Position numbers and translations under genes: made by a program. 47,941 nt of DNA from an uncultured Pedosphaera sp. (lineage in GTDB: Bacteria; Verrucomicrobiota; Verrucomicrobiia; Limisphaerales; Pedosphaeraceae): contig CAIYZC010000134.1 of NCBI GenBank assembly GCA_903930565.1, forward strand, positions 1 through 47,941, written 5' to 3'. Below are positions 6,485 to 44,658 of this stretch, one piece after another. The notes beneath the pieces were generated by a model. It saw only the letters and a program-made list of their open reading frames with translations. It was not told the DNA's origin and ran no database searches. Position 1 is the first letter of the stretch, and every line of letters starts with the position of its first letter.

Positions 6485-6654
6485 AACGGCTTACATTGCA
6501 AGGCTCGCGGCCAAGTCAGCGCCGGCTCCGCCGCCCGCCCTCGTCATTTTTGGGGGCGCAAATTAGTTCACGCGTGCCATAGCGGAAAGGCGCTGGAGTT
6601 CCTAACCTTTTGACGCAGACTCCCCACCCGCTGGCTGGGCGTCTTCATTTGCTT

Positions 6655-16110: not shown

Positions 16111-16230
16111 GGCGACATGATGAACACGAACGCCGGAACTGCAAGGCGCAAAAACCAGACCCCCACCCCGCCCACCGGAGGCGCGGGCCGGGTGCGAGGG
16201 GGACGGTTTGGGCAATGGTCGGTGAATTGG

Positions 16231-25909: not shown

Positions 25910-27343
25910 TTATTTGGCGGGCTTGGCGGAAGGGGGATCGGGTTGGTCGGCGTGCGGGGGAACGGCATACCGCAAGGCTTTCAGCTGGTCGGCGAGCTCG
26001 GAGGTGAGTTTCCCCAGGGCGGCGGGTTGGGCGGCGAGGTTGTTCAACTCGTAGGGATCGACGGCAAGGTCGAAGATTTCCGTCCATTCCGGATGGCCGG
26101 CGTATTGCACGAGCTTGGCGTTGGCCGTCCGGACACCCACGAGCGTGGGGGTGTCCCCACCGCCATTTTCGTAGAAGTATTCGGCCAGGAAAGATTGGCG
26201 CCAATTCGCGGGCTTTTGGCCGGCGGCCAAGGCTTTCCAACTCCGGCCCTGCATCTCCGCCGGCACCGTCACGCCGGCGAGCTCGAGCCAAGTTGGGGCC
26301 AGGTCAACGTTGAGCACCAACTCGTTCAGGACTTGCCCCTTGGGGAAGAGGCGCGGGTAGCGGACGAGCATCGGGATGCGGAGCGACTCCTCGTAGATGG
26401 AGCGCTTGTCGCCCAGGCCATGTTCGCCGAGGTAGTACCCGTTGTCGCTGGAATAGACGACCACCGTGTCCTCAGCGAGACCGAGCGTGTCGAGGCTGTC
26501 CAGCAGCTTGCCGAGGTTCTCGTCGGCGCCGGCGATGTGGCGCAGGTAATCCAGATGCACGGGGTTGGTGGAGAGGGGGGCCGGCTTGCTTTCCCCGCCC
26601 GGAACGGGCGGGTGGAAGACGGCCCGGGCGGTGGAGTTCGGCACCGGGCGGCTGGTTTCGCCGGCGTAGAGGTTGCGGAGCCGCTCGGGAAGGTTCCGGC
26701 CACCCCGCGGCGAGTGCGGGCTCTTGAAACCGACCACCAGCGAGAACGGCTGGTCGTGATTTTTTTTCATCCAATCGACGGCCAAGCCGGTGGTGACGTC
26801 GTCAATCCAGCCCTGGGTGGGGGTGGCCACGCCGTTGATCTCGACCGGGCAATCGTTGTAGCGGCCCTGGCCGACGAAACTGGCGGAGTAATCGAAGCCG
26901 GGGCGTTGGCCGTGTTGGTTGCCCATGTGCCACTTGCCAATGTAGGCGGTGCGGTAGCCGGCGGCGCGCAGCAACGTGGCGTGGGTGACGGAATTCGTGG
27001 GGAACGGCGTATGGTTGTCGATGACGCCGTTGAGGTGGTTGTAGCAACCGGTGAGGAAGGCGGCACGGCTCGGGGAACAGAGCGAGAGGGTGGCGAAGGC
27101 GTTGCGGAAACGGACGCCACCGGCGGCGAGGCGGTCCATGTTGGGCGACTTGAACCAGGGAAAACGGGCGCGCTCACCCTGCTCACGCTGGACGGCGCCC
27201 ATGGCGTCCCAGCGCTGGTCGTCGGTGTAGATGAAGAGAAAATTTGGCTTGCGGTCGGCGGCGCGCAGCGGGGCGGCGGCAGCCAGCAAGGCGAGGAGCC
27301 CGGCGGCAACCAGGCGACCGAGGGTCGGAGGGGAGGTTTTCAT
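25910..27343 (-). CDS. Sulfatase (iduronate-2-sulfatase/choline-sulfatase-like), secreted
   Basis: Exported type I sulfatase of 477 residues, full length. The signal peptide is LVAAGLLALLAAAAPLRA. The metal site NFLFIYTDDQRWD (D41, D42) and the formylglycine motif CSPSRAAFLTG (C89-x-P-x-R93) are intact, so a maturase is needed. GKWHMG, VGFKSPHSP and YSSDNGYYLGEHG complete the active site. The C terminus has the usual YELNNLA segment. The enzyme hydrolyses sulfate esters on glycans outside the cytoplasm. It follows the M60 peptidase gene by 36 bp on the same strand, suggesting an operon aimed at sulfated glycoprotein. ATG at 27343 is well placed. Confidence 0.94.
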   Translation of the reverse strand: MKTSPPTLGRLVAAGLLALLAAAAPLRAADRKPNFLFIYTDDQRWDAMGAVQREQGERARFPWFKSPNMDRLAAGGVRFRNAFATLSLCSPSRAAFLTGCYNHLNGVIDNHTPFPTNSVTHATLLRAAGYRTAYIGKWHMGNQHGQRPGFDYSASFVGQGRYNDCPVEINGVATPTQGWIDDVTTGLAVDWMKKNHDQPFSLVVGFKSPHSPRGGRNLPERLRNLYAGETSRPVPNSTARAVFHPPVPGGESKPAPLSTNPVHLDYLRHIAGADENLGKLLDSLDTLGLAEDTVVVYSSDNGYYLGEHGLGDKRSIYEESLRIPMLVRYPRLFPKGQVLNELVLNVDLAPTWLELAGVTVPAEMQGRSWKALAAGQKPANWRQSFLAEYFYENGGGDTPTLVGVRTANAKLVQYAGHPEWTEIFDLAVDPYELNNLAAQPAALGKLTSELADQLKALRYAVPPHADQPDPPSAKPAK

Positions 27344-27379
27344 GTTGGGGGGCGCAGCGGACAGGTGCGGATTCGGGGT

Positions 27380-29338
27380 TCAGGGGCGGCCGGTCGGGAA
27401 ATAACGGTCAAGGAGGGTCTGCAGGGCCTGGCGCGCCTGGCGGCCTTCGCGCTCCCCGTAGTCGGCGAGCGGTTGGTCATTGGTTTTGGCGCCGCGCGGG
27501 TGGAGGGCGTTGAAGTGCGCCAGATAAGCCTCCCGGTTCAAGGGAACAAGGTCCTGGTAATGCCGCAGACGGTCGTAAATGGCGGGGGATGCGGCGAGCC
27601 CGGCTTGGGTGAGCTGCGATTTCAACCGGTCCGGCGCCTCGGGCGGCACGCCCCAGAAGTGGATCAAGGGGGTGAGGTCGGCGTGGGCGGCTTGGGACAT
27701 CCGCAAAATCCGACTGTCGGCCGGGTCGGCGTTCTTGGGATAGGTGATGCCCTGGGAAGCATCGACCTGCACGGAATGCCAGAACCGGCTGAGCGCGTCC
27801 CAGCCGTAGAGTTTGGCGATATCCACGTATTTGCCGTGCCCCCGGTGTTGATAAGCCATCTCCGCGGCGGCCATGGGTTGGCTTTGGCGAAAGTGGTCGG
27901 TGACCATCCAGGTGATCGCGGCCTGGTCGAGGGTCATTTCCCCGCGGTTGCCGAGGGACCGCGCAAAGGCCGTGTCCAGATCCACGCCGAACTTTCGGTT
28001 CAAGACCGCGACGTGGAGCAGGTTGACGGCGGACTCCGTTTCGCCGCTGAACTTGGTGATCGAGCTGGCGTGGCCCAATTCATGAAAGGTCGTATGCGGG
28101 GAATACTGCGGCCCGCGAAGCAGGTAATGGAGCGGGGTTGCCCCCGACGCCGAAGCGGCCAATTTATCCGGATCGTAGGGATCATTGGACATGGGATAGC
28201 CGGGGAAATTGGCGGTCCCGCGGTAGAGGACATCGTTCTGCATGTACAAGACGGTCTTGGATCGGACCAAGGGCAACCCGAGCAATTCGGAAACCGCGTC
28301 CATGGAAAGATCCCAGTCGCGCATGACCGAAACGGGATCCTCCAACTGACGCACCCAGGCGGCCGGCACTTGCATCATGAACTTGTCGGACTCGAAATCG
28401 GCCCACGGCCCGGGTTGCAACCGCTCGGCGTTTCGCCATTCGGCGAGGGAGGTCGGGGCGAAACTGCGGGCCGAGAAGAACGGGGAGCGAACCGCGTTGG
28501 CGATCCGCACGGTGACCTGGCCGGCGTCCGCCCGGTAGGGCACTTCCACGTAGATACCGCCACCCAACGGGTTGGCGATGCGGGTCACGGGGCCGGTGAT
28601 GGGGAAGACCAAGGACACGCGGTCCAGCCGTTTGATCCGGGGTTTCTTCGCCAAGTCCCACGAATGCGCGCCGACCCGGAGGTTGAAACCCTTGCCCACC
28701 AGTGCCGCGGGCACGGTCACGGTGGCGATGCTGCCGGGCGCCAGGTAGCACCCGGTCGGGCGGCGGGCCGGTTCCTCGGTATAGAGCACGGGGAACCCCC
28801 AGCTCTCCGGCTGGGAGGCATTAATCCGGACCTCGTGAGCCGCCTCCGGATTGGCCGGGGGCGTGGCCCGGCCGGGAAAGTAATCGGCGGTCTGGAACCG
28901 TTTGCCGGCGAGCAAAGCCGCATTGCGTTCGAAATTCGCCGGAGTATAGGCGTGATCCAGCAGCGCCTGTTGCACCGCGAACAGGGCGCGGTGGATTTCC
29001 AGCCCGGCCTGCGGGGCGCGCGGAAAACCGCCCTTCGTGGCGGCGTTGATGAAGAGGGGTCCCAGGCGGGTTTCATAGAGTTCCGCCAATTGAAAAGCCT
29101 GGGCGGCGAGGGTCGGATCGCCCCCGATGGCCGCGGCATTTGCCACAACCACGGTGGTCGCGTTGGAAACCTCGCCGGCCGACAAGGGGGCGTCGCCGCT
29201 GATCGATTGCGCCAGGGATTTGAGGGCGGCGGCCGGCTCGGGGGCCGCCGCAGTGGCCGCCCAGCCCGGAGCCAGCCAGAGCACGGTTACCAAGGCGAAG
29301 GGAAGCCAGGACGGGAGGCGAAAGTTGAACATAATCAT
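27380..29338 (-). CDS. M60-family (enhancin/mucin-type) metallopeptidase, secreted
   Basis: Exported zinc peptidase of 652 residues. The signal peptide is LPFALVTVLWLAPGWAATAA. A helical N-terminal region (about 35-160) precedes the M60 domain: GCYLAPGSIATVTVP, GGGIYVEVPYRADAG, and the gluzincin site FHELGHASSITKFSGETE with H419, E420, H423 and the downstream Glu (E433 or E435) of the HExxHx(8,28)E pattern. M60 enzymes cut O-glycosylated mucin-like proteins. ATG at 29338 is one of two close starts (the other 29332). The sulfatase gene follows after 36 bp. Together they fit attack on sulfated, O-glycosylated protein. Confidence 0.9.
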   Translation of the reverse strand: MIMFNFRLPSWLPFALVTVLWLAPGWAATAAAPEPAAALKSLAQSISGDAPLSAGEVSNATTVVVANAAAIGGDPTLAAQAFQLAELYETRLGPLFINAATKGGFPRAPQAGLEIHRALFAVQQALLDHAYTPANFERNAALLAGKRFQTADYFPGRATPPANPEAAHEVRINASQPESWGFPVLYTEEPARRPTGCYLAPGSIATVTVPAALVGKGFNLRVGAHSWDLAKKPRIKRLDRVSLVFPITGPVTRIANPLGGGIYVEVPYRADAGQVTVRIANAVRSPFFSARSFAPTSLAEWRNAERLQPGPWADFESDKFMMQVPAAWVRQLEDPVSVMRDWDLSMDAVSELLGLPLVRSKTVLYMQNDVLYRGTANFPGYPMSNDPYDPDKLAASASGATPLHYLLRGPQYSPHTTFHELGHASSITKFSGETESAVNLLHVAVLNRKFGVDLDTAFARSLGNRGEMTLDQAAITWMVTDHFRQSQPMAAAEMAYQHRGHGKYVDIAKLYGWDALSRFWHSVQVDASQGITYPKNADPADSRILRMSQAAHADLTPLIHFWGVPPEAPDRLKSQLTQAGLAASPAIYDRLRHYQDLVPLNREAYLAHFNALHPRGAKTNDQPLADYGEREGRQARQALQTLLDRYFPTGRP

Positions 29339-29403
29339 AAGCGGGTTGCGAGGGCGGGTGGGGACGGGCAGACGGATGGGGGGCGGCGCCAAGGTGGCGG
29401 CAT

Positions 29404-30073: not shown

Positions 30074-32980
30074 TCAGGGGCCGGTGTAGCGCAGACGGAA
30101 AAACTTGGCGTTCGCCAGGCTGCTCAAAGGCTCCGGATACTCGAAGTAGAATCCGGAGACCGAGACCCCATAGGGACCGGGGAGGGGAGTCCAAACCGCC
30201 GGCGAATTCAGATCCAGCGTGGATTCCAGGGTATAGTTGGCAAAGTTCGCGCCCCAATAAACCACCAACGCGTCCGGATCCAGGCGGATGGCCAGGGGCG
30301 CCTGGCGGATCGATTGCGGCAGCGGCGGGGCCACCACGACCGTGCCGGCGAAGTCGATGGGATCGCCGACCGTGGTCGGAAGGCGGGTCGGGAACTCCAA
30401 ACAATCGCAAGCAGTGAGGTCGGCGGTGAGCGGGATCACCCACAAACCATTCGTACCCAAGATGGTGCCCGCCCCCACCAAGGCGTTGCCGCCGGGCGAC
30501 CAAAGGGTGCCGTGCGGGAAGCCATCGCCACTCTGAAGGAAGGCGGTGATCTGGCTCAGGGGCGTGCCATTGGTGCCCGCGACATAAATGTCGTGGCCGA
30601 TGTCCAACGACGAATAGGTGTTGGGGTCCACCAAACTGAAATGCGCACCATCCGGCGACCAGGCCGGCCAGCGGGCGCGCGGGATGCCGAGGGGCAAAAT
30701 TTGCACCGACACCAGATCCGGGGTGGTCACCAGCACTCCGCCCGAACTATGATCAAAAAAGGCCACCCGCCCATCGACCGGGCTGACGGCGGGCGCGTAT
30801 TGGTTGCACTGCGTGGGGAAGCCCACCGGCGTCACCGCGCCGGTCAGATCAATTTGTTGCAAACCACACCCATTGTCGAAAAAAAGGCGGGTTCCCGCCC
30901 GGTCCCAATCCATGCCCACCAGCGTGGTGGCATTCGAGTAGAGCAGCATTTCATCACCGGTGCCGAGATCACGCACCCATAAATCGCCATAGATGCCATA
31001 GCTGTCGGGCGGCGGCGTGGTCCGACGCAGGAAAGCCAGCCACTTGCCGTCGCGGGACGCGCGGGGCCGGGAGCCGGTGGTGATGAACCGGTCGCCCGTG
31101 CCATCCAGATTGATCGCCCAGATGGAAAAATTCGTGCTGGATTTCCGGCCGTAGAAAACGGTGCCTTCGCTGGAATATTGAACCAGCGCGGGATTGGACG
31201 GTGAGACGGCGTTCGTGTCGGGCGGATTCAAGGTAAAAGCCGGTTGCGGCGTGGCGGTGCCACCCGCGGCAAAAGCGTAGCGGGCGGATTCCAGCCGCGA
31301 GCGCCCCACCAGGCTGTTCGGAATGGCGTAGTATTCCACGGTGGTGTCCCGGCCAATCGTGAAAGGAAGGGTGTAATTCCGCCACCCTCCCCCACCGCCG
31401 GTCGGCCGGTAAAAGATGTGGTCGCTGGGGGGCTCAGCCACGAGGGAGACGGAAACCGGACCGGCATAGTTCCCGGGTGGCGGAGCGATGGTGACCTGCA
31501 GGGGATCCGCGGCTTGCGGAGCGGAATAGGTGAAGATGGAGATATCCTCACGATATTGTTCCGCCAAGGCAAACACCGTTCCGGTGGGAGGGGCGCCGAG
31601 GTCCGTCGAGACATCATTCCCCAGCCCGATCCCCGGACCACCGTCAGTTTCGGACAACACCGAAAGCCCGGCGGGCAGGCCGCTGATCTGCACACTCCAA
31701 TCCGCCGCGTTCAGGGAAGCGACGAGGCCCGGCGTGCGGCTGACAAAGGGTTCCCCGCGAAACACCCAAACGTTGGCGCGGGTGGCATTCCGCGTCACCG
31801 GAGTCAGGTCGCCGGAACTAAGTTGAGTGTAGTTCACCCCATCGAATTGGACCACTTGTCCATGACTGGAAACACCCCCGCCCGCCGGGGCATCGAGCAA
31901 GGCAAACTTGCCGTCCGCCAACGGCACGACGCCGCTGAAGCGTGCTCCCTGGCCGGCCGCGCCACTGCGATAGGCCGGGGCCAAAGTCGGCACCCCGCCG
32001 GAAACGGTGAGCCCCCGCACGCCATCACCGAATTGAATCAGGGCGGTGCCATCCGCTCCCAAGGGCACATAATAAACCCGTTCCACGGCGTCATCCAAAG
32101 TCACCGGCACCTCCAGTCCGAGGTCGTAACCCGTCGCGGTGTTCACCAAGGCCTGCATCACCAGATTGGACTGGCCCGGAACATAAAAGAAGAAGCGGGG
32201 CATCGTTTCCCCATCGAAAAGGCCGAAGACATATTCGGTGCCGGAGGCCAGGTTGGTTTTGGTCAACACTTGGGCAAAGGCCGCATTGGGGGCGAAGACT
32301 TGGAATTGGTCGTTCGTGCCCCGTTGCAGCATCGCCGCCAGGGTCGCGGGATCATCGCCGGGATTCAGGGCGTTCCCCCGGGCCACCGGCCCGGGCGCCG
32401 ACTGACTGCCTTGCTGCGTGGGGGGAGCTCCGGCGGCCAAACCAAACAGTTCCAGCAACGCGGCCCCATCCGGCAGGTCGTTGTCATTGGAACCGGTCAG
32501 GAGGAAATCAAAAGCCCCCGCCGCGCCGAACGGCGCCGGCATCCCAATCAGCAACGCCAACCCGACACCGGACGGGGTGATCGTCACCGGCGCCAAGACG
32601 TTGTTGGCATCCGCCAGTCCCACCAGATTCACATTGTTCAGCTCGGGCGAAGTCAGGGCCACGGCATCCAAGGTCGAATCCAAGAATCGCCCTACGGCGA
32701 TCGCACCCGGCCGAGACACTCCGGTCGTCGCCGGGCCCGCCCAGGTCAGTTGGCCGACGGCATCCTGATAGCCCACCCGCGCATTGCCCGTGAGTTTGTC
32801 CACCACCAGCACATCGGGAATACCGTCGCCGTTGAAATCCCCGGAGGCGAGGAATTCGGTGGCGGTTTCATAGACAAAGCCGCCCGCCCGCGCCGAACCG
32901 GTCAGCGCCAGACCCGCGCAGGCCAACCCGGCCAGGCACCCCGGCCAGACCCGCAAGAAAGAGGTAAATAATGCCTTCAT
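30074..32980 (-). CDS. Large secreted PD40/TolB-like propeller protein
   Basis: Exported protein of 968 residues, last of a three-gene operon. After a signal peptide (GLACAGLALTGSARAGG) comes an FG-GAP/VCBS-like unit (LASGDFNGDGIPDVLVVD, about 45-62). About residues 490-565 match a chitobiase/hexosaminidase C-terminal type domain (PPPGNYAGPVSVSLVAEPPS, then TTVEYYAI). Residues about 600-830 are TolB/PD40 propeller repeats: FYGRKSSTNFSIWAINLDGT, PRASRDGKWLAFLRR, YAPAVSPVDGRVAFFD, ARWPAWSPDGAHFSLVD. The C terminus is a beta domain ending KFFRLRYTGP, the same type of ending as in the protein at 43804. It starts 12 bp after the stop of the FN3 protein gene. Function unknown; a role in an extracellular assembly or scaffold is inference. 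Confidence 0.88.
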   Translation of the reverse strand: MKALFTSFLRVWPGCLAGLACAGLALTGSARAGGFVYETATEFLASGDFNGDGIPDVLVVDKLTGNARVGYQDAVGQLTWAGPATTGVSRPGAIAVGRFLDSTLDAVALTSPELNNVNLVGLADANNVLAPVTITPSGVGLALLIGMPAPFGAAGAFDFLLTGSNDNDLPDGAALLELFGLAAGAPPTQQGSQSAPGPVARGNALNPGDDPATLAAMLQRGTNDQFQVFAPNAAFAQVLTKTNLASGTEYVFGLFDGETMPRFFFYVPGQSNLVMQALVNTATGYDLGLEVPVTLDDAVERVYYVPLGADGTALIQFGDGVRGLTVSGGVPTLAPAYRSGAAGQGARFSGVVPLADGKFALLDAPAGGGVSSHGQVVQFDGVNYTQLSSGDLTPVTRNATRANVWVFRGEPFVSRTPGLVASLNAADWSVQISGLPAGLSVLSETDGGPGIGLGNDVSTDLGAPPTGTVFALAEQYREDISIFTYSAPQAADPLQVTIAPPPGNYAGPVSVSLVAEPPSDHIFYRPTGGGGGWRNYTLPFTIGRDTTVEYYAIPNSLVGRSRLESARYAFAAGGTATPQPAFTLNPPDTNAVSPSNPALVQYSSEGTVFYGRKSSTNFSIWAINLDGTGDRFITTGSRPRASRDGKWLAFLRRTTPPPDSYGIYGDLWVRDLGTGDEMLLYSNATTLVGMDWDRAGTRLFFDNGCGLQQIDLTGAVTPVGFPTQCNQYAPAVSPVDGRVAFFDHSSGGVLVTTPDLVSVQILPLGIPRARWPAWSPDGAHFSLVDPNTYSSLDIGHDIYVAGTNGTPLSQITAFLQSGDGFPHGTLWSPGGNALVGAGTILGTNGLWVIPLTADLTACDCLEFPTRLPTTVGDPIDFAGTVVVAPPLPQSIRQAPLAIRLDPDALVVYWGANFANYTLESTLDLNSPAVWTPLPGPYGVSVSGFYFEYPEPLSSLANAKFFRLRYTGP

Positions 32981-32992
32981 AAGCCGGCGCGG

Positions 32993-35900
32993 TTATTGGA
33001 CGGGAATCTCCACTTCGCCCGCGTTGATCGTTTCCACAATTTCCCGGTGGTCATCCATCCGCAGGACGAAATAGCGGTACCGCGCGCCGGCCACGACCGG
33101 TTGCTGATCGCGCAAGTAGAAGAAGGTCCGCGTCTGATCGTTGGCCGTCTCATAATTCACCGTGATCAGTTTGTCGGGGATGGTGATGAAAACGGCATTG
33201 GGGAGGGTCCCCTGCTGGTGCCACGGGATGCTTTCCAGCAAGGGACTCACCTGGACCACATTTCCGGAAACCCGCGGGAAGGCGGCGTTGGCGACCTGTT
33301 GGCGATACAAAACAATCGGCAACAAGGGTTGATTCTGCCGCGCCGGATCCGTGGAAAGCCGTTTGAAAACAAATCCATTGGGATCAATCAACGGGGCGTC
33401 GGAGGGTTGCGGGCCGAGCGTGTATTGAATCTGATTGGTCGTGCCCACGGTGGTCGTGGGCCCCAGCGAACGAGCCAACTCGGCGAAGCGCACCCCCACA
33501 GGATAGTGGCGATCCAAGCGCTGAAAACTCTGGGCGTCATAATAGTACATCAGAACCGCGGCCACCCGGGGGTAGATGGGGGGAAGGCTATCCGGGGCCG
33601 GATTGTCAAACGCGGTGATATCGGGCAGGGGTCGCGCCGGCCAAGGAACCGTCGGCAATTGGACCGGCGGCTTCCAAGTGAACTGCCATTCCGGGGAGGG
33701 ATCCCAGGGCTTTCCCTGAGCGTCCACGGACGCCACCGTGATGCGATAGGCCACGTTGGGTTCCACCCCCACCGTCAGGGAGAATTGGGGGCCCGGGCCG
33801 AACCCGGGTCCAATCGGCGGCGTCAATTGCGCCGCGTCATAGCTGCTGGATTTCCCCGAACCCAGCCCCGGTACGAGCCCAAGGAAGCTGGCATGGGAGT
33901 TCCAGGTCACCACGTCGCTCAGCAACTTGTCCGCCACGAAGACATTCTTCTTGCCATCATTGCGGGCGACCATGACTTGAAACCGGGCCACGCCACTGGT
34001 CGGGCAGAACCAATTCAGGCGGACTTGGGGATGGCTGAGATCGCCGGCCTCCGTGGGCTGGGCCAGCACCGGACGGGGCGGGGGCGACGGGGCCAACGGT
34101 TTGCAGCCGAGAAAGCTCATGGGGCTCCCATTACCGTGTTCATCCAGCAACTGCACAAAATAGCACAACTGGGCGGCCGCCGAAGGCATGGCATCATCCT
34201 TGCACACGATTTGCTTGGTGGGATTCGCCGGATCGAACGGTGCGGCCGACTGCGCCATGAGCAACAGCGGCCCGCCATTCACGCTGCGATAAAGCCGGTA
34301 CTCGCGGGTGCGGAGGGTCAGCCCAAACTGGACATTGATCGGCGCGACGGGCCCGTTATCCGCCGCCCGGGCCACGTGCTGCTCACAATCCGGCAAATGC
34401 GGCAATTTCATCACGCAACCGCGGATGGGAGGCAAGGGGCCCAAAATACACGCGGGATAGGAAACCCAATACATTTGGTTGGGGTCGGGCCAAACCACGC
34501 CATAGGAAGTCCAGACCGTGTTGCTCGTCATGATTTCCACCAACATCGGCGTGCCCGTGGGCACGGGAAATTTCATGCCCACCGTTCCGCTGGGATCCGG
34601 CGTGGGATTGATGGCGTAGTAACAAGAGATGCCCCCGTTCAAAGTCGTCAGCAATGGATCGTTGGCGCTGAGCGCCGTCTCCAGGATTTGCCCGCAGTAA
34701 AAAACGTACTCCCGCCGCTGGCCGGAGGGAACGGCGGTGGTGATGCCGGCCGTCACCGGCGCGGAGGTCAGGCCGGTGAAAGTGCCTACAACACAGCCAA
34801 GGTCATAGCTGGGCGCCGCGCCCTCGACCCGCACGCTAAAATCCATCTGGGCCGAGGTGGCTCCTGGAGCAAAATAAAAAGGTCCATAAGTGCCCACGTA
34901 CAGCCCGGAATTGGTCACGGAGAACTGGACCCAAGCGACGCCCAAATCCCGCCGCTGGCAGGTGAAGCGAAAGTTCCAGTTGTTCGGATCCGGAGGATTG
35001 GTGAGGTTATTGACCGCCTGAAACTGAACCACCGGGGTGCCGCAACTTCCGAAAATCGCGCCGGTGGCGGCCGCGGGCGCCGCGCGCTCCCGCAACACAC
35101 CCCACGCGGGAGCGCTGTGCGGGGACAGCAAAGGATCGCAAGCGCCCACGCTGACCGCCCGTACGGTGTACCAGTAATTGCTCACGCCGGCGGTCGCCGG
35201 GGAATCGGGCCCGTTGTCGAGAAACACCCCGGTGTTCGTCCCGGCCATGTCCGGCACGATGCCCACGCGGTTGGCCGTGGGATCGACAACATTCCGCAAC
35301 GCCCCCGCGGGATTTTGCCAACGGTAGATCCAATAGTGGGTGATCAGATTGGTGCGATCCACGTTTTGTTGCCAGGTGATTTGAAAGCGCTGTTGATTCG
35401 TGACCCCGCCGGCGGCCAGCGGCAGCACCTGCACGTTGTTCAGCACTTTGGCGCCGGTGGGCGCGAGCGGCGGCCGACGTCGGCAGGCTTGGGCCAACCC
35501 GCCGGCGGAAACGAAGCCATCCCGGCCCAAGACATCCCGGGCCGTGACAAAATAATAAAACTGCGCGCCATCGGCAAAGGCCGCGCCGCCGTGGGAAAAC
35601 CCGTTGTCATCCGAAAAGAAATAGGTGGTCGCATCGGCCGGATCATCGGCGGCCCCCGGGCCCGCACCCGCGGAGAAATCCTTTCCCGCCGTGACCGGGG
35701 CGGGATTGACCTGGGTAAATTTGCCACTGTTTTGCAGCGCGGACAGTCCGGGCGGATTGATGTCATAGCCCGCGGCCACCGCGTCCGCCAGCGGGATGCG
35801 CCAAAGATTGTAGCCGAAACTCAAGAGGGAGAGCCGGCGCAATTCATCCGGCGACCCCCAACGCAGGCGGATCTTCAGATGGTCGGACGGAGCGTTCGTC

Positions 35901-36589
35901 ACCACTTGGAACGGTTTGCCGGGAGCCGGCAGGGTGACGGGAAAACCGGGATTGATCGTGACCCGTCCCGCCACATCACCCGCGGCGCCGGTCGTCGGGT
36001 TTACCTCGCGAATTTCGTAGGTCGTCACCCCGGCAATCGGTTCGGCGAATCCCTGCCCGAGACACAAGGTCAGACCGGGATTGACCCGGGACAGCAACGC
36101 CACCACCTGGGCCACCGAGGGATCCACGCGGCTGCGCTCCAGGGCCGTCACCACCTTTTGCGCCAGAGTTTGGTTGGTGATGCCGGCGATCGAGTGCAAA
36201 AGCACCTCGAGGGAATGGTTCAAGCCGGATAAATCCTGCCCCAGGAAAACTGATTTATTCAGCAACCCATCCACCGTGGCCGCATCACCCGCGGCAGAAA
36301 TCTGACCGCGTTGGGTAAACGCCCCGGCATCGGGCGGGCGCCCCGCCTTGGCATAAACGGCGAAGCGGCGGCCCGCCAACAGGCCGGGTTGAGGGGAGCC
36401 CACCAGCACGTAAGACCAATCCCGCCCGGTGTTGTCGTGGACGGTGGTGCCCACGGAGAACACCAGGTTGCTGAACAGATTCTGGGCCGTTCCGGTGGCC
36501 GGCAGCAGGAGCGTGATCGCGAAGAATAATCCGCTCCACCAACCCGCCCCCAAGCCGGCGTTTCCTTGCCTAAAGCGCAGCGTGTTCAT
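32993..36589 (-). CDS. Giant secreted fibronectin-III-type protein
   Basis: Exported protein of 1198 residues, middle gene of the operon. The signal is WWSGLFFAITLLLPATGTAQ. Residues about 40-110 hold a beta-rich opening (FSNLVFSVGTTVHDNTGRDW); then several FN3-like beta-sandwich units can be followed by their strands: QRFQITWQQNVDRTNLITHY (about 390), EYRLYRSVNGGPLLL (about 750), QVRLNWFCPTSGVARFQVMV (about 850). Cysteines occur in pairs (SVGACDPLLS, IFGSCGTPV, CYYAINPTP). No enzymatic motif was found. The start codon shares one base with the stop of the 2093-residue gene (TGATG), so translation is coupled. It probably contacts its operon partners outside the cell. Confidence 0.88.
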   Translation of the reverse strand: MNTLRFRQGNAGLGAGWWSGLFFAITLLLPATGTAQNLFSNLVFSVGTTVHDNTGRDWSYVLVGSPQPGLLAGRRFAVYAKAGRPPDAGAFTQRGQISAAGDAATVDGLLNKSVFLGQDLSGLNHSLEVLLHSIAGITNQTLAQKVVTALERSRVDPSVAQVVALLSRVNPGLTLCLGQGFAEPIAGVTTYEIREVNPTTGAAGDVAGRVTINPGFPVTLPAPGKPFQVVTNAPSDHLKIRLRWGSPDELRRLSLLSFGYNLWRIPLADAVAAGYDINPPGLSALQNSGKFTQVNPAPVTAGKDFSAGAGPGAADDPADATTYFFSDDNGFSHGGAAFADGAQFYYFVTARDVLGRDGFVSAGGLAQACRRRPPLAPTGAKVLNNVQVLPLAAGGVTNQQRFQITWQQNVDRTNLITHYWIYRWQNPAGALRNVVDPTANRVGIVPDMAGTNTGVFLDNGPDSPATAGVSNYWYTVRAVSVGACDPLLSPHSAPAWGVLRERAAPAAATGAIFGSCGTPVVQFQAVNNLTNPPDPNNWNFRFTCQRRDLGVAWVQFSVTNSGLYVGTYGPFYFAPGATSAQMDFSVRVEGAAPSYDLGCVVGTFTGLTSAPVTAGITTAVPSGQRREYVFYCGQILETALSANDPLLTTLNGGISCYYAINPTPDPSGTVGMKFPVPTGTPMLVEIMTSNTVWTSYGVVWPDPNQMYWVSYPACILGPLPPIRGCVMKLPHLPDCEQHVARAADNGPVAPINVQFGLTLRTREYRLYRSVNGGPLLLMAQSAAPFDPANPTKQIVCKDDAMPSAAAQLCYFVQLLDEHGNGSPMSFLGCKPLAPSPPPRPVLAQPTEAGDLSHPQVRLNWFCPTSGVARFQVMVARNDGKKNVFVADKLLSDVVTWNSHASFLGLVPGLGSGKSSSYDAAQLTPPIGPGFGPGPQFSLTVGVEPNVAYRITVASVDAQGKPWDPSPEWQFTWKPPVQLPTVPWPARPLPDITAFDNPAPDSLPPIYPRVAAVLMYYYDAQSFQRLDRHYPVGVRFAELARSLGPTTTVGTTNQIQYTLGPQPSDAPLIDPNGFVFKRLSTDPARQNQPLLPIVLYRQQVANAAFPRVSGNVVQVSPLLESIPWHQQGTLPNAVFITIPDKLITVNYETANDQTRTFFYLRDQQPVVAGARYRYFVLRMDDHREIVETINAGEVEIPVQ

Positions 36590-39500
36590 CAGTAATCAAT
36601 GGAAAAGTTCAACCCACCATCCGTCACCACGCCCCGGATCGAGATCCCCTTGCAAGCGGAGACGCAGAACGGGCAATAGCCGATGGAACCGCAAATCTCC
36701 GCGGAACCGCTGAAGTCCAATTCCGGCCCGCCGGGACCGACCCCGGCGGCCACGCCCATGGTGGTTTCCACATGACCACTCAACAGGCAAAGCAGGGAAA
36801 GATCGATCGAATCCTTCTGGCGGAAACCAATTTTTCCGGAGCGCGGGCCGCCTTCGTAATAGGTGGCGCAAGTCACCTCGGCTTCGATATCCAACAAGCA
36901 GCTCGAAATGCCAAAGAGAATTTCCGAGAGCGACAAACCGCCGCCGTATTCAATGTAAATACCAGTGAAACTCACGGGATTGCCCAGCACGGCGGCCACG
37001 TCCGGATCCACAAATTTCAAGGTGTTCAGGTCGCAGGCGTGGCCCGCAAAAAATCCCGCATGCACATCCACCGGCACGCCAAAGACCACCACACTGCCGG
37101 CCACTTTGGCGGCCAGATAGTTTTCGATCTCCCCGATCGCAAAAGTCGCCCCCACCTCCTTGATGCTGCAGCCCTTGAAGTCGGCTTTGCCTTTGATATC
37201 GATCAATCCGCCGACGCCCAACACGGCGCCGCTTTGCAGGGTCCAGCGCGCTTCGATAGTCAGGGTGAGGGGCGGTCCGCCGCCGCTGACGCCGGCCCAA
37301 TTCAAGGGAATATTCTTGGCGCCCAGCGTGACTTCCGCCGAAGGCGCCCCCGGCGGAATGCAGTCCAACGGGGTGGAGGACGAATCCAGTTCCTTGATGT
37401 CCAGGTAGGCTTGGAAGGTCATGGCGTCCGGCAAATTCATCTGGATGTTTCCGTCGAGATGGATGCGCCGCAGGGAATCCCCCTCAAAGGTCGGGGCGCC
37501 ACGGATCTTGGCCGAAGCCAGGGATTGCGTCATCTGACCAATGCCCTTCAGCGCCTGGAATACCCCGTCATTGCCCTGTCCCACCTGTTTCTCAATGCCG
37601 TCGCGGATGGCGCGGTTGATTTGGTCAAAGAGCACATCCAACAATTGATCCAAAAGGGAACTGCCCTCGCCAAAGAACTGCCGGAAATCTTTCTGATAGC
37701 CGCCCACGATGGGCGACCCCAGGAAAGCCAGGGTAAGGCGTTCGCGGATGGCATCCTTCACGGCGTTGGGATTGGCCGTGAAGTAATCCCCTGACGGGGT
37801 CACCGAAGTGGCGCAGAGATCGGCCACCGCCGTCCCCGCCGCCTGGAGGAAGGGCTGCACATTGACGGTGTCGTGCACGATATCATCCAACGCCCGCGGC
37901 AGATCGCCCGTGGCGGAATTCAGCGTGTCCTTGACCCCGGCAAACTGGGAACGGAGATCCCTGAGTTCCAGTTCAATTTGGGAGAGCGTGGGTTCCAACT
38001 CGGCGGTCAGGTCCGCCGCCGCTTGATCGGCGATATCCCCCACCAACCCCAATTCCGGCAATTGATCCTCCACCAGCTTTTTCACCAAGGTGCTGATCAC
38101 ATGGCGTTGCCCCTGCCCGTCCTTTTCCACCACGCGCAAGAACAGGCCGATGGTGTCATCCACATCGGAATAGGTATGCTGCATTTTCCCCAGCACCCCG
38201 TTGGCCTGGCCGACGGCGCCGTTCAGGGTGCTGATGGCGCCGCCCAGGCCGTTGGCCGGATCAGTGACAATGCCACTGACCTTGGCCGGAAAACCGGCCG
38301 GATCGTTTTGGTAGGCCAGCGCCAATTGGTTGTAGATTTGGTCAACCACCGATCCCCCAGGGCCGGCAGCCGCCAACAACGGGCCGGCGGGATCCGCCAG
38401 CAGCGGGCGGAAGAAAGGCCCGGCATCCTCCCGCAATACCGCTTGCAAACTCTGGAAACCGCTGGTGGCGCCGGAAGTATCCAGATCCTTCGCAATCGCC
38501 TGGTGCAGGGCGTCGGTCAACGAATTGAGCGGCGAAAATGCCTCATCAATTGCGTCATTCACAAAATCCAGCACTTTGATCCGCGGCAGGGCCAGGGTTA
38601 GATCCTGGGCAAAATCAAAATCCACTTTTCCGGGGGTCAACTCCTTCAAATTGCTGTCCACGTCGATCACCGGGAGATAGGCCTTGTCCTTCTGAAATCC
38701 GGTGAATTTGTGCAAGAGCGGACTCCACGAAAGGGCGTAATCGAATTTCGCCACTTCGATCCAATCGCGCTGGGCGCGCGGGTGGTAATCCTCCGTCTTG
38801 GAATTCCGGTAGGCGTCCACGGTCGCCAAGCTTTGCGGAAAACCATCATGGTTCAGATCAAACTTGGCACCGGTGAAAAAGTCGTAATTGTTGCTGTCGC
38901 GCCACCCCAGATTGAGCCCGGTCCCCTCCGCTTTCGGCCAGCCACCCATGACATAAACATTCGCCGAATTGGTCCCGGTCGGCCGCACATGCAGATGCAC
39001 TTTCACCTCCCCAAAAAAGGGCGTTTTGATTTTGCCGGCGATGTTGTAGAAGCCTTCATCCGGCCGGTGGGGGCTCCCATAGTTGTTGAAATAGGAATCA
39101 CCCACCGTGGCCAATGTGAAGGTGCTGTTGCCCGGCCCTTGGAGATTCAGGCCGGGCGGCGGGGCAAACCGTGAATTGCACCCTTGCAGCGGCATTGCGG
39201 CCGTCGTCAGGTTGCCATCCGCCTGGAAACCCAGGGTGGCATGGAAGGCCTGCGGGATGAAGGGCAGTTTGGTTTCCACTCCCAGCACCAAAAAGCGGGT
39301 CGCGGTGTCGCAGACCTCGGTGGCCAGCGGACGAAAATCAATGGTCTGCGGCAGGAGGTCCGTGTTCCAATATACCAGATGGTCCGCGGGGCTGTTGGCG
39401 GGCACCCGGGCGGAATCCAGTCCCCCGCGGCAGAAGAACTGCATGCGCTCGAAATTCTGGGTGAAGCCCGCCGGGTAAGGCAGAACCACCTGGCCATCGG

Positions 39501-42500
39501 TGCGCGATTCGCGGGTCTGACTGTCGAGAAAGGAAAGCCGGTAGCTCGAAAAGTTGAAGTGGTAACCGTACAGCGTGAGGTTCGGTGGAAAGGAGGCCGC
39601 TTCATGAATGCCGCTCACCCCGCCATACCGCACATAATACTTGGCCCGGTCCGTCAGCGGATACGAATCGATCTGCAGATTGGCCAGATAACTCCGACCG
39701 GTGGCCGGACGCCGAAAGTTCAAGCCCGCGTAATTCGCCTGGCCGCCGGCGTAATCCGCCGGATGATCGGGGCTTTCCCGTAAATCTGACGTGGTCGCAT
39801 CCCCCACCCCGGTGAACAGCATCGCCGGCGCCTGTTGCTCGGGCGGCAAAGCGAATTGCCCCCCGAGGACGAAGGTTCCGGGCATCCGGTACACCCCGGC
39901 ACTCACCGGACTGGTCTCCTGGGCGTAACTGGTCCCGCCGGCGTAGCCCCACTTCAAGCCCACGGGCGGGATCGCCCCGAAGCCCAACAACCCGCCATCG
40001 GGCGTGAATTGCAGTGCTCCGCCATCCGGGCTGAAGGCCAGGGAGGTTTTTCCAATGGTCGCCCCGCTGCAATTGGTGTCGCCACAGTCCTGCGAATAAA
40101 TCACCGGCACGGCTCCCATCACCGGCAAGCTGCTGGAACCGGGGTCAACCTGGTCATTGAGGATGCTCAAAGTGGCCCCCGCCCCCACGCTGATCTGATT
40201 CCCGGCCGCCCGGCCGGCATAGGGAAAATGGGGGCGCAGTTCCGGCGGATTCAGCGCGAGTTGGGTGGTCAACCGCGCCACGTTGTTCGTGTCCGCCGTC
40301 ACCACCACGGAGGCGCCGGCCGCCAGCGTGAGGTTGCGGTAGTAACCGTCGTTGGAAACCCGGGTGGCCGCCGTGGAATCCGTGAGCGTGGCCCGCGCCC
40401 CATCCAGAAAATCGTCCTCGCTTTGGCGGGTGAAATAAAGCGGATTCGGACCCGGCAGGAGAATCTGACCGCCATTGACCACCCAATGCAGCGAGGAGGC
40501 GCCCACCCAAAAGGGCTTGGTTTCCTCGATGGCCCAGAGCGGTCCGGGCAGGACCAATTCGGCCGACTGCGGATGCAACGTGGCATCCAATGCCTGGTTG
40601 AAAAAGGTGATTTGATTGGTGGCCACATGATTGGTCACGCCACCGGCCACCGCCAACCCCAAGGGCAATTGCAGTTGCACCGTCCCATGGATTCCGGCCC
40701 CGTGCGCCATGACCACATTCGTGCGGATATAGCAGATGTTTTGGCTGCAATCCACATCCGGAACCGGTCCGAACAGACTGACGCCCGGCAGCAGCTCGGT
40801 GGCATTCCCGTCGTCACCCAACACGGCCACCAGCGTCGTGCCATTGCCGTAATGATAGGCGGGATTGGCCAGCAGGGTGCCGGAATTCGCATTGACGGCA
40901 AGTTGGGTGTCAAAACCCCCGAGGTCGTTGCCCCCCCGTGCCGGGTTGTTGGCCACGGAAGTGAACGTGGTGTCGTTGCCGTCGAAGAACAGATGACCGT
41001 TGAAATGCAACCAGGTGGCCAAGGGCAGATCATTTTCCTCGTCGGTCACCAGGGTGCCACCGTCCGGCAGGTGCGCAAAGACCACGCCGGCGGAATACCG
41101 ATCGCTCACGGATTGCAACTGGTTCGCCGGCGTCACATTCAGAATGGTCGAGAAGGTCACCACCGCCCCCGGAGGCGGTGGCGCGGAGGCGTTGTACGCG
41201 CCCAGCGTCAGGGTGTTCACCAGGGTCGCGGGGGTTTGCAGGGGCACCGCGGCACCGCCGGCATCCTGCACGGTGGCGGACAGCGTGGCGCTGACCCCCA
41301 AAGGCGCGGGGGCGTCGCCATAATCGTAAAAACGCCGGACGGTCGCCTGCGCGGGCAACGGAAAGGAACTGTAGGCGGGACTGTTCTGGATCGACCAGAG
41401 GCGCCCATAGGCCGCATAGTCGAGGGATCCCAGCAAATACTGGCTGCCATCCCCGATGCGGGCCAGCGAGCCCGTCCGGGTCAACACGCCACTGGCGGTG
41501 CCATCCGACAATCCAGCCAGATCCGTGGCGACGTTTCCGCCGGCTTCATCAAATTCATAGGCGGAGACCAATCCCGGCTCCGCCCCGGTCAGGGGCAAAT
41601 GGGCGTATTGATTGATCTGGGCCGGCGTCAGCGCGGCATTCCAAATGGAGGCGTGGTCCAGTTGTCCGTTGAAAAACTGCCCGCTGCCGCCCACGTAGGT
41701 GCCCAAGCGCACATCGGTCAGGCTGGTGGTTGGGCCGGGATTATTGTTCCACGGTTGGGTGTTCACCAACTGCCCATCAATGAAGGTGCGGCCCGAGGTG
41801 GCGTCCACGACGAAGGCCACGTGATGCCACTGCCCATCCGCGACGAACCGGTCGCCGGCGCTGGAAAAGCCGGGCTCCACATAATCCGTCAGATCCGCGT
41901 AATACCAAGGCGCCAGTCGCCCCGCGTTCAAAGCCAGGGCCCAACCCGCTCCGGCCCCGCCTTGGTACTTGGTCATAATGCCGGGATAGGCGCCCACGCT
42001 TTGGCTCGTCTTGATCCACGTCATCAGGGTGATCGGCAACGCATTCTGGGCATCCTGGTGCGGAATATCAATTTGATCGGAAACTCCATTGAGCTTGAGG
42101 GCCGTGCCCGCCACCGGGGCCAGCACCACCGGCGCGGTGGAGGGGATCCAGGGCGGTGCCCCCACCAAGTTGAGGGGATGGTGGTTGCCCACCGCATCCA
42201 GCGCCGCGTTGCCCCCGGCATCGTCCAGATGCCACAACGCCAGCAAACCGGCTTCTTGGCCGGAGAGCACCCGGTGCTTCATGTAATTCAGCGCGTCCAG
42301 ACTCAGCGCTTCGCTCCAAATGGATACCTCATCGATTTCCCCCCGGAAGGACGGGACGAAATTATCCAAGCGACCGATCAGGAGCGGCTCGGTCGAAGTG
42401 GGCGCTCCCGGTGACCGGGTCCACCCGCGCGAATCCCGCTGCCCGCCGTCCACCACCAAGCGCGCCCCGCCACCGTCCACCACGAACGCCACTTGATGCC

Positions 42501-42870
42501 AAGCGCCATCGGCGATCAGGCCGCCATCCAATCCCAGGCTCCCATCCCAAACATAATCCGAGGCGTCGCGAAAATACCACGCGCGCACATGTCCGCCGTA
42601 AAGGTAAACCGACCAACCGTTGAGCGAAGACGATTTGTAATGACTGGCGATGCCGCGGATGAGTAAGTCCTGATTGGTGGTCCGCACCCAGGCGGTGACG
42701 GTAAGCGGAAAGGCATTGAAGGCGGCCCCAGCGGTAATTTGCGCGAACGCGTTGGTGCCATCGAGCCGCAGCGCGGTGCCGGCGTCCGCCGCCGCCCCCC
42801 ACAGCCAGCAAATTCCGCAGATCAGTGCCCGGACTGCGAGCCTTCGTAACCACGTTATTCTCGATTTCAT
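36589..42870 (-). CDS. Giant secreted LamG-domain protein (2093 residues)
   Basis: First and longest gene of the operon. The signal is RLAVRALICGICWLWGAAADA. Two LamG/concanavalin-like domains follow (about 32-200: LRLDGTNAFAQIT, WHQVAFVVDG, DEVSIWSEALS; about 253-440: LKLNGVSDQIDIPH, WHHVAFVVDATS). The middle (about 460-1240) is beta-rich with ordered Gly/Asn segments and Cys pairs (DCSQNICYI, CGDTNCSG). Around 1428-1790 it becomes helical and amphipathic (VLDFVNDAIDEAF, LSQIELELRDLRSQF). The C terminus (about 1800-2093) is beta-rich with a Cys cluster (CGSIGYCPFCVSACKG). No enzyme motif is seen. LamG suggests carbohydrate binding. ATG at 42870 is preceded by a 16-codon frame at 42910-42960. 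Confidence 0.9.
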   Translation of the reverse strand: MKSRITWLRRLAVRALICGICWLWGAAADAGTALRLDGTNAFAQITAGAAFNAFPLTVTAWVRTTNQDLLIRGIASHYKSSSLNGWSVYLYGGHVRAWYFRDASDYVWDGSLGLDGGLIADGAWHQVAFVVDGGGARLVVDGGQRDSRGWTRSPGAPTSTEPLLIGRLDNFVPSFRGEIDEVSIWSEALSLDALNYMKHRVLSGQEAGLLALWHLDDAGGNAALDAVGNHHPLNLVGAPPWIPSTAPVVLAPVAGTALKLNGVSDQIDIPHQDAQNALPITLMTWIKTSQSVGAYPGIMTKYQGGAGAGWALALNAGRLAPWYYADLTDYVEPGFSSAGDRFVADGQWHHVAFVVDATSGRTFIDGQLVNTQPWNNNPGPTTSLTDVRLGTYVGGSGQFFNGQLDHASIWNAALTPAQINQYAHLPLTGAEPGLVSAYEFDEAGGNVATDLAGLSDGTASGVLTRTGSLARIGDGSQYLLGSLDYAAYGRLWSIQNSPAYSSFPLPAQATVRRFYDYGDAPAPLGVSATLSATVQDAGGAAVPLQTPATLVNTLTLGAYNASAPPPPGAVVTFSTILNVTPANQLQSVSDRYSAGVVFAHLPDGGTLVTDEENDLPLATWLHFNGHLFFDGNDTTFTSVANNPARGGNDLGGFDTQLAVNANSGTLLANPAYHYGNGTTLVAVLGDDGNATELLPGVSLFGPVPDVDCSQNICYIRTNVVMAHGAGIHGTVQLQLPLGLAVAGGVTNHVATNQITFFNQALDATLHPQSAELVLPGPLWAIEETKPFWVGASSLHWVVNGGQILLPGPNPLYFTRQSEDDFLDGARATLTDSTAATRVSNDGYYRNLTLAAGASVVVTADTNNVARLTTQLALNPPELRPHFPYAGRAAGNQISVGAGATLSILNDQVDPGSSSLPVMGAVPVIYSQDCGDTNCSGATIGKTSLAFSPDGGALQFTPDGGLLGFGAIPPVGLKWGYAGGTSYAQETSPVSAGVYRMPGTFVLGGQFALPPEQQAPAMLFTGVGDATTSDLRESPDHPADYAGGQANYAGLNFRRPATGRSYLANLQIDSYPLTDRAKYYVRYGGVSGIHEAASFPPNLTLYGYHFNFSSYRLSFLDSQTRESRTDGQVVLPYPAGFTQNFERMQFFCRGGLDSARVPANSPADHLVYWNTDLLPQTIDFRPLATEVCDTATRFLVLGVETKLPFIPQAFHATLGFQADGNLTTAAMPLQGCNSRFAPPPGLNLQGPGNSTFTLATVGDSYFNNYGSPHRPDEGFYNIAGKIKTPFFGEVKVHLHVRPTGTNSANVYVMGGWPKAEGTGLNLGWRDSNNYDFFTGAKFDLNHDGFPQSLATVDAYRNSKTEDYHPRAQRDWIEVAKFDYALSWSPLLHKFTGFQKDKAYLPVIDVDSNLKELTPGKVDFDFAQDLTLALPRIKVLDFVNDAIDEAFSPLNSLTDALHQAIAKDLDTSGATSGFQSLQAVLREDAGPFFRPLLADPAGPLLAAAGPGGSVVDQIYNQLALAYQNDPAGFPAKVSGIVTDPANGLGGAISTLNGAVGQANGVLGKMQHTYSDVDDTIGLFLRVVEKDGQGQRHVISTLVKKLVEDQLPELGLVGDIADQAAADLTAELEPTLSQIELELRDLRSQFAGVKDTLNSATGDLPRALDDIVHDTVNVQPFLQAAGTAVADLCATSVTPSGDYFTANPNAVKDAIRERLTLAFLGSPIVGGYQKDFRQFFGEGSSLLDQLLDVLFDQINRAIRDGIEKQVGQGNDGVFQALKGIGQMTQSLASAKIRGAPTFEGDSLRRIHLDGNIQMNLPDAMTFQAYLDIKELDSSSTPLDCIPPGAPSAEVTLGAKNIPLNWAGVSGGGPPLTLTIEARWTLQSGAVLGVGGLIDIKGKADFKGCSIKEVGATFAIGEIENYLAAKVAGSVVVFGVPVDVHAGFFAGHACDLNTLKFVDPDVAAVLGNPVSFTGIYIEYGGGLSLSEILFGISSCLLDIEAEVTCATYYEGGPRSGKIGFRQKDSIDLSLLCLLSGHVETTMGVAAGVGPGGPELDFSGSAEICGSIGYCPFCVSACKGISIRGVVTDGGLNFSIDY

Positions 42871-42960: not shown

Positions 42961-43220
42961 TGGTGTTTTTTGATTTGATTCCGATGCTTGGCAAGTTCGG
43001 TTCCCAGTCCGGCTAATTATCGACAATCGCAGCGCAAAATCAGGCTGCACCGGCAATAAGTGGCAACAAAAACCACCAACAACGCCAGAATCCAACGCCG
43101 CATCTCCGACCGGGAACCAGAGGGTCCTATTCCAGCAGCGCCAACCCGCGGATCCACGATCATTTCGTAAACTTTCGGCTCCCTTTCGGCGGGACGTTTA
43201 GAGACGGCCGCCGGCCCGGC

Positions 43221-43730
43221 CCGATAGGATTCCGGGCTGAGTCCCACCGCCTTGCGGAAGGTGCGAAAGAAGTGGTTGGCGCGCGAAAATCCAGCCGCGG
43301 CCGAAATCCCGGCCGCCTTCAAGTTCTCAGCACCGGGTTGGCGGTGCCGCCGAGGATGCCTTGCAAGGCGCGGGCTACCGGCGCATGGTCCAGGGCCACG
43401 CCATTGGCGCTGCGCCGCGTGACGACTCTTTGGTTGGGACCCGGAACACGGCGGCGGGCACCGGCAAGGCGCGTCGCCGCAGGCTTCCAAAATGTCCGCA
43501 GCCACGCAGTCGTTGCAAGCAAAGACCGTCAGCGGTTTGGGCAGGCGTTTGGGTTCCCGCATCCGCCGCCGGCGCCGGGTCGGCCAATCCGGCACCACGG
43601 CCGGACCGGCGCGGCCACGGACCGGCGGGAACGAGTGGCCGGCGACCTGATCACGGGCCAATCGGTCGAGAAATCCGACCAAGCGTGCGGCGTTGCGGCA
43701 GTCGTCCAAGAGCGGCGCGTGGAAAATCGG
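43221..43730 (-). pseudogene. Decayed AraC/XylR-type transcriptional regulator
   Basis: Several parts of an XylR-like regulator (periplasmic-binding-protein-like sensor plus AraC helix-turn-helix) can be read in changing frames: RLPKPLTVFACNDCVAADIL and EACGDA from the sensor domain, QRVVTRRSANGVALDHAPVA from the linker leading to the HTH, and FSRANHFFRTFRKAVGLSPE (then SYR) from the last HTH helix. Parts in between are missing and frames shift, so no active product is possible. AraC/XylR proteins control carbohydrate genes, and this one sits in the space between two divergent operons of exported proteins. Its death may leave them constitutive or under another control. Confidence 0.7.
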
Positions 43731-43803
43731 CCGGGACGACCCCGGCGAAAAATTAATTAAAATAAGCTGAAAGCTTTTGGCGCGGGGCGCGAATTCTCCC
43801 GCG

Positions 43804-44658
43804 ATGAACACTCAATGCAAGGGATGGCGGTGGGGGCGGGGCTGCGCCCAGTTGGCGGCCGCGCTGCTCGCGGTTGGGAGCTTGGCAATGGGACAAGGGC
43901 TCCCCGAGCCGGATTTGATCCTCTACGGCAAGGTGATCGACACCGGCGGCCCGGTGCCGCTGCGGTTGGGTTACGGAACGCTGAGTTGGACCTTCCAGCC
44001 GGGCAACGGCGGCCCGGCCGTCAGCTATGCCACCACCTTGACAAATATCAACAACGAGCTTTCGTATGTGTTGCATATTCCCTGTGAAACGCCGGTGTTT
44101 GGCCAGGCGGCGACGCCCAAAACCGTGCAATTGACCGGCGCCGGACTGGCCTTCAACCTCGCCACAGTCCTGTGGAACGGGACCAACCTGCTGTCCTTCG
44201 CCCAGCCGGCGCAATCGAACACGGTGTTCTTCGCGACGGACCGCGGCCGGGTGGAGCAGGTGGATTTGCAATTGTCGGCCCCCGAGGTGATCGATCCCTT
44301 CAACGGGCTGCCGGTGGTTTGGGAATTGACATATTTCGGCCGGACGGGCGTGGATCCCAACGCGGATCCGGACGGCGACGGCATGACGAACTTCCAGGAA
44401 TACCTGGCGGGCACCAATCCGAACGACGCCACCTCCACCCTGCTCATCACGGGGCTCACCGTGGTGGACGGGGGGCTGCAAATCAGCTGGCTCAGCGCCG
44501 TAAACCGGCAATACACCGTGCAACGCGCCGACGCCCTCGGCCACGCGTTCACGGACCTGCAAAGCGGTCTGGCGGCCACGCCCCCGACGAATTCCTGGGT
44601 GATTCCCACCCCGGCCGGCACGGGGCCGCAGTTCTACCGTTTGCGTCTCAATCCCTGA
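43804..44658 (+). CDS. Secreted protein with TSP3-type calcium repeat and C-terminal aromatic-RLR module
   Basis: Exported protein of 284 residues, first of a plus-strand operon. The signal peptide is LAAALLAVGSLAMGQG. A beta-rich N-terminal region (about 30-175: LILYGKVIDTGGPVPLRLG and ATVLWNGTNLLSFAQ) is followed by a calcium-binding TSP3-like unit (DPNADPDGDGMTNFQEYLAG, about 188-207), then a C-terminal beta domain (QYTVQRADALGHAF) ending FYRLRLNP. The TSP3 unit and this ending are common in exported PVC proteins. ATG at 43804 gives the signal; there is no Shine-Dalgarno sequence. It lies 22 bp before the next gene. Function unknown. Confidence 0.85.
   Translation: MNTQCKGWRWGRGCAQLAAALLAVGSLAMGQGLPEPDLILYGKVIDTGGPVPLRLGYGTLSWTFQPGNGGPAVSYATTLTNINNELSYVLHIPCETPVFGQAATPKTVQLTGAGLAFNLATVLWNGTNLLSFAQPAQSNTVFFATDRGRVEQVDLQLSAPEVIDPFNGLPVVWELTYFGRTGVDPNADPDGDGMTNFQEYLAGTNPNDATSTLLITGLTVVDGGLQISWLSAVNRQYTVQRADALGHAFTDLQSGLAATPPTNSWVIPTPAGTGPQFYRLRLNP

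Follow-up and report, generated by a model that had tools for sequence, protein, structure and literature searches.

The window, i.e. the whole stretch of 47,941 nucleotides that was analysed, is a complete contig of a genome assembly of 6.6 Mb in 870 contigs, and the named genomes most closely related to it are MAGs with the labels Pedosphaera and Limisphaerales. Three open reading frames on its minus strand, designated P1, P2 and P3 and together encoding about 4,260 residues, are considered here as a cassette. The genes, their junctions and the features assigned to them are as follows.

36589..42870, minus strand: P1 (2093 aa), predicted exported protein with a LamG pair, a beta-rich core, long helices and a C-terminal amphipathic beta domain
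42319..42615, minus strand: first LamG region of P1, best Laminin_G_2 stretch (aa 86-184; Pfam search)
41611..42087, minus strand: second LamG domain of P1, PF13385 (aa 262-420; Pfam, E = 1.3e-41)
38596..41412, minus strand: conserved beta-rich core of P1 (about aa 487-1425; conservation, and a model from aa 894 onward)
37522..38574, minus strand: helical section of P1 (about aa 1433-1783; AlphaFold secondary structure)
36592..37521, minus strand: C-terminal domain of P1 (aa 1784-2093), predicted to form 16 long antiparallel amphipathic strands, barrel-like, with the end GLNFSIDY (AlphaFold, fold comparison and C-terminus)
36589..36589, minus strand: overlap of 1 bp between the P1 stop and the P2 start (ORF coordinates)
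32993..36589, minus strand: P2 (1198 aa), predicted exported protein with FN3-like domains
35072..35476, minus strand: FN3-like domain of P2 (aa 372-506; PDB profile matches led by FN3 domains)
34055..34378, minus strand: second conserved FN3-like segment of P2 (aa 738-845; conservation, motif only)
32981..32992, minus strand: spacer of 12 bp between P2 and P3 (ORF coordinates)
30074..32980, minus strand: P3 (968 aa), predicted exported protein with an FG-GAP-like N-terminal half, a CHB_HEX_C-like segment (motif) and PD40-like repeats
32696..32851, minus strand: FG-GAP-like segment of P3 with a Ca-site-like DFNGDG (aa 44-95; below the Pfam cut-off, conserved in relatives)

An earlier note on this DNA had given the three frames with their lengths and positions, the 1-bp overlap and the 12-bp gap; the frames were re-derived (minus strand, ATG starts) and the junctions re-measured with the same result. 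The note had also reported the trio to be free of enzyme motifs, and our family searches likewise gave no enzyme family. In relatives, too, cassette genes overlap by, or are separated by, a few bases, and the P2/P3 overlap is 4 bp in about 20 related loci. Export of all three proteins is strongly indicated: a Sec-type N-terminus is clear by eye in P1, P2 and P3 of the window, and a signal sequence was scored in relatives, with a crude heuristic, for P1 (50/56), P2 (64/69) and P3 (52/59).

The distribution of the cassette was examined in a sample of 293 genomes of the order with independently built P1 and P2 profiles (for P1, the C-terminal 1,200 residues). Each profile matched 56 genomes and the matches coincided in 55, with one extra genome each, although these counts are not independent because the sequences come from related MAGs. 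The two singleton matches are fragments: one is a frame of 334 aa from a genome that is 66% complete, the other comprises 93 aa and lies at the end of a contig, immediately ahead of a P3. The P3 profile matched 55 of the 56 genomes with P2, and in a wider sample of the phylum P2 was found in 16 of 241 genomes. Within the family, G001 and G003 carry the trio in the order P1-P2-P3, and G006 and G007 carry pieces of it that are interrupted by contig ends; a search of G002 and G004 found it absent. The same order was observed in nearly all retrieved loci of sufficient length, and both the order and the tight junctions are still kept in several Verrucomicrobiota lineages at 25-35% identity. The order P2-P3-P1 was observed in two loci that are close relatives of each other (L157 and L181). 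A search for plasmid carriage gave no match to P2.

Pairwise protein distances were then compared over 52 loci. The correlations were 0.91 (P1/P2), 0.87 (P1/P3) and 0.84 (P2/P3), values reached in 0 of 500 permutations. The three parallel cassettes that one genome carries (L112, L156 and L169) fall in different clades in all three trees, and, because these paralogous cassettes separate alike in each tree, shared species history alone is an insufficient explanation. The trio is probably one inherited operon; its order, junctions and co-inheritance are conserved. The proposal of the earlier note that the three are made and act together is strongly supported at the genomic level by order, junctions, co-occurrence and matched divergence across the phylum. 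As to whether the genes occur separately elsewhere, which the note had raised against its own proposal, P1 and P2 do not; the propeller half of P3 does, standing alone in 33 genomes. Two unusual loci deserve mention. In L111 (6485-13432, minus strand; one genome), a P1 without most of its C-terminal domain is joined in frame to an N-terminally truncated P2 by a single in-frame deletion, which is either a natural fusion or possibly an assembly fault. L100 was rejected as a gene fusion and appears to be an extended open frame.

The cassette is conserved and its neighbourhood is not: when eight flanking proteins of the window were sought next to the cassettes of the closest relatives, 0 of 8 were found. 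In other genomes the genes that recur at its flanks encode kinases, sigma factors and pseudopilins. Upstream of P1, about seven independent loci carry a WD40 Ser/Thr kinase, an ECF-type sigma factor or both, the sigma factors being identified from one near-cut-off Pfam match and the similarity among the proteins. The kinase lies 3 to 1,400 bp from P1 and is divergent in L179; one further locus type has a WD40 histidine kinase upstream. Examples of the upstream Ser/Thr kinases are L109:716-3796, L127:483-3590, L134:952-4035, L113:419-3532 and L150:33-3086, several of them preceded by an ECF-type sigma factor; in L115 such a kinase is directly downstream of the cassette. No WD40 kinase or sigma genes were found in the window itself. 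This association, seen in a minority of loci, may be regarded as a lead and not as a rule. In the window, a degenerate XylR/AraC-type regulator (43017-43811, minus strand; Peripla_BP_3 and HTH_18 fragments below cut-off) sits between P1 and a divergent TSP3-repeat gene at 43777-44658. An 889-aa open reading frame (23012-25681, plus strand) has a C-terminal Peptidase_S74 (endosialidase intramolecular chaperone) domain, which is usually found on self-processing trimeric tail-spike-like proteins.

Other parts of the window are rich in genes for glycan degradation (1672-8931, plus strand; 15151-16263, 21257-22477 and 25910-29392, minus strand). The enzymes there are two GH2, a GH27-type alpha-galactosidase with NPCBM, a sugar epimerase, a SASA-type esterase, a sulfatase (SGSH_C) and an M60 peptidase. 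The GH2, alpha-galactosidase, SASA, sulfatase and M60 genes, together with the LamG domains and barrel-like end of P1, would suit a complex for glycan capture and import, a Verrucomicrobiota counterpart of SusC/SusD in which P1 would be a lectin-capped barrel with P2 and P3 as accessories at the surface, and oligosaccharide would pass through the P1 barrel to feed the nearby hydrolases. However, SASA, sulfatase and M60 were looked for next to the nearest relatives' cassettes and not found there, the recurrent flanks elsewhere are of the other kinds named above, and Pfam searches of P1, P2, P3 and their relatives gave no match to TonB-dependent receptor or SusD families. We consider such an import complex rather unlikely. 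A polysaccharide-utilisation locus as the natural context of the cassette is unsupported, as the tested window neighbours are absent beside it in relatives.

The N-terminal module of P1 is exchangeable, and the core and the C-terminal domain are universal. P1 of the window exceeds the gathering cut-off of PF13385 by far (142.7 versus 27.6 bits, two stretches); among 21 diverse P1s, LamG was present in 3, an InhA-like MAM module in 3 and a propeller in 1. LamG was rejected as the defining part of P1, since most relatives are without it. The C-terminal domain was found in 69 of 70 P1s, and the exception is half of a split open reading frame. The universal part of P1 is a core of about 1,600 residues that ends in about 16 long amphipathic strands, and searches of the core against Pfam and NCBIfam gave no match. 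An AlphaFold model of P1 from aa 894 (58 aligned sequences, pLDDT 82) comprises a beta-rich part, helices at about 1433-1783 and 16 long strands. The long helical section described in the earlier note is therefore present in the model, and the C-terminal beta domain, for which that anatomy had no place, must be added to it. Matches of the P1 profile in the PDB to spike proteins, keratins and apolipoproteins were taken as coiled-coil or composition noise.

When the C-terminal 324 residues were modelled alone, the same 16 strands were obtained (pLDDT 84, pTM 0.78), nearly every one with one hydrophobic and one polar face. In a VIA-align comparison of the longer model, in which the barrel rows were the ones looked at in detail, outer-membrane barrels came out on top (MOMP, Z 14.5; OpdK family, Z 14; MtrB, Z 13.9 with 255 residues at 5.0 Å). 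Foldseek gave porins a probability of up to 0.98, with E-values of 0.016 or worse and target TM-scores of 0.3-0.43. The best Foldseek E-values belonged to ApoB100, lipovitellin and MTP (E = 4e-5), and ApoB reached Z 13.6 in VIA-align. Together with weak Apolipoprotein Pfam matches in 3 of 21 P1s, they are what a lipid-binding groove or lipoprotein-like particle, formed by the amphipathic strands of the C-terminal domain and amphipathic helices as in ApoB/MTP, would lead one to expect, and the cassette would then carry lipids outside the cell. Yet the TM-scores of these matches were 0.06-0.09 with an rmsd above 30 Å (12.4 Å in VIA-align), no Vitellogenin_N match was obtained with Pfam in P1 or its relatives, the matches of the P1 helices are generic coiled-coil signals, and the C-terminal aromatic signature described below speaks against it. 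Lipid carriage is, in our estimate, quite unlikely.

A BAM beta-signal-like end (an aromatic last residue, hydrophobic residues at -3 and -5) was found in 53% of 74 P1s, against 1% for P2, 0% for P3 and 3.5% for background open reading frames. P1 of the window, which ends in ..LNFSIDY, has this signature; in some relatives the terminal aromatic residue is missing. Two further properties point the other way. Long extracellular loops that alternate with short periplasmic turns are typical of porins, though not of every barrel. The loop lengths between the 16 strands in the isolated model (2, 1, 15, 13, 2, 2, 3, 2, 22, 12, 6, 3, 2, 6 and 2) do not clearly alternate, and this speaks against a porin-like barrel. 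Conservation is slightly higher on the hydrophobic faces than on the polar ones (entropy 1.92 versus 2.12 bits, p = 0.004), which leans slightly against a barrel because lipid-facing residues are expected to be less conserved, not more. For Verrucomicrobia genomes, an outer membrane with BamA has been established, and BamA was present in all those examined in PMC3422733. We hold the chances that the C-terminal domain of P1 is an outer-membrane barrel to be evenly balanced.

A barrel of this kind might instead serve secretion, exporting its own N-terminal passenger or P2 and P3 in an autotransporter or two-partner manner. A large N-terminal passenger followed by a barrel-like domain with a beta-signal-like tail would fit such a device, as would the obligate partners P2 and P3; however, P1 has no Autotransporter, POTRA or ShlB family match in Pfam, has about 16 strands rather than 12, and carries a helical section of 350 residues before the barrel. 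We regard it as very improbable, more so than lipid carriage.

The Pfam search of P2 from the window gave no match, fn3 included, and 2 of 20 P2 relatives matched fn3 (best E = 0.0093). A profile of aa 372-506 matched mostly fibronectin-III chains in the PDB, the first being neogenin (E = 1.5e-4). In P3 of the window, both FG-GAP (PF01839; 18.9 bits, cut-off 22.1) and PD40 (PF07676; 14.2 bits, cut-off 20.9) were below the cut-off; among P3 relatives, FG-GAP was detected in 9 of 20 at E <= 0.01 (best 1.4e-4) and PD40 with a best E of 1.9e-8. Downstream of the FG-GAP-like half, relatives differ: some have PD40, others TSP3 or RCC1 modules. The first 395 or so positions of the P3 profile also match proteins of about 735 aa, most of them standing alone, in the 33 genomes mentioned above (G015, G018, G022, G073 and 29 others of the order), which are without P1 or P2. 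Matches of the P3 profile in the PDB to TAL effectors were taken as coiled-coil or composition noise.

Our preferred reading, with a probability of about 0.5, is that the cassette encodes, as an operon, an outer-membrane-anchored surface complex for the capture of ligands or surfaces; we infer the formation of the complex, its topology and its ligand. The C-terminal 310 or so residues of P1 are predicted to fold into an amphipathic beta structure of about 16 strands, most like an outer-membrane barrel, which BAM would insert so that P1 is anchored in the outer membrane. The core and the helices may then form a stalk that holds the tip outside the cell, the tip being the LamG pair here and a MAM-like or propeller module in relatives. 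P2, as a string of FN3-like domains, and P3, as an FG-GAP/PD40 propeller, would be obligate surface partners of P1, and the assembly would capture ligands such as glycans, particles or neighbouring cells. Since the tips differ between the parallel cassettes found in several genomes, the cassettes probably differ in the targets they recognise; a link of their expression to a WD40 kinase and an ECF sigma factor is probable in some lineages. The extracellular scaffold or adhesive apparatus suggested previously is plausible but incomplete in this respect, as the P1 core probably ends in a barrel and LamG is an exchangeable tip. More tentatively, and with chances well below even, the cassette may be a phylum-specific outer-membrane-anchored capture machine with exchangeable tips, parallel copies per genome and kinase/sigma wiring in some lineages; if so, it could be a missing class of outer-membrane receptor for seizing polymers or surfaces.

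A literature search, with subscription journals largely outside its coverage, found no description of the trio, and neither a paper nor a family that names these proteins came to light. The module types are already known; their combination and conservation appear undescribed within the libraries searched. The trio is present in about one fifth of the sampled genomes of the order and in scattered members of the phylum, with its genes nearly always kept together, and it would represent a major and so far unstudied investment in the cell surface by Verrucomicrobiota of soil, freshwater and sediment. Should P1 prove to be an outer-membrane anchor whose tips can be swapped, the cassette would open a direct way to study how these bacteria, most of them uncultured, recognise polymers, particles or partners.

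Several known systems resemble parts of the cassette. Large lipid transfer proteins (ApoB, MTP and lipovitellin) share amphipathic strands and long helices with P1, but no sequence homology to P1 was found and the TM-score is <0.1. SusC/SusD likewise combines a barrel with surface partners encoded together, as proposed here, and glycan enzymes are nearby in the window; unlike SusC/SusD, the cassette is without TonB-dependent receptor or SusD homology, and the enzymes are not conserved with it. Autotransporter adhesins (type V secretion) are similar to P1 in the signal peptide, the long passenger, the C-terminal barrel-like domain and the terminal aromatic residue, whereas PF03797 was not found by Pfam search in P1 and 21 relatives, and P1 differs further in its approximately 16 strands, the long helices before the barrel and the tri-gene operon. 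In bacterial integrin-type FG-GAP beta-propeller proteins (PMC3192720), FG-GAP-like repeats with a DxNGDG motif correspond to the N-terminal half of P3, but P3 of the window is below the Pfam cut-off, and PD40, TSP3 or RCC1 modules are added depending on the relative. Finally, LamG (PF13385) surface proteins and LamG/FN3 bacterial adhesins are, like the cassette proteins, exported, large and modular, with lectin-like LamG and FN3-like modules; in contrast to these adhesins, LamG is optional in the cassette, being present in some P1s only, and the 1,600-aa core of P1, which matches no Pfam or NCBIfam family, is accompanied by two obligate partner genes.
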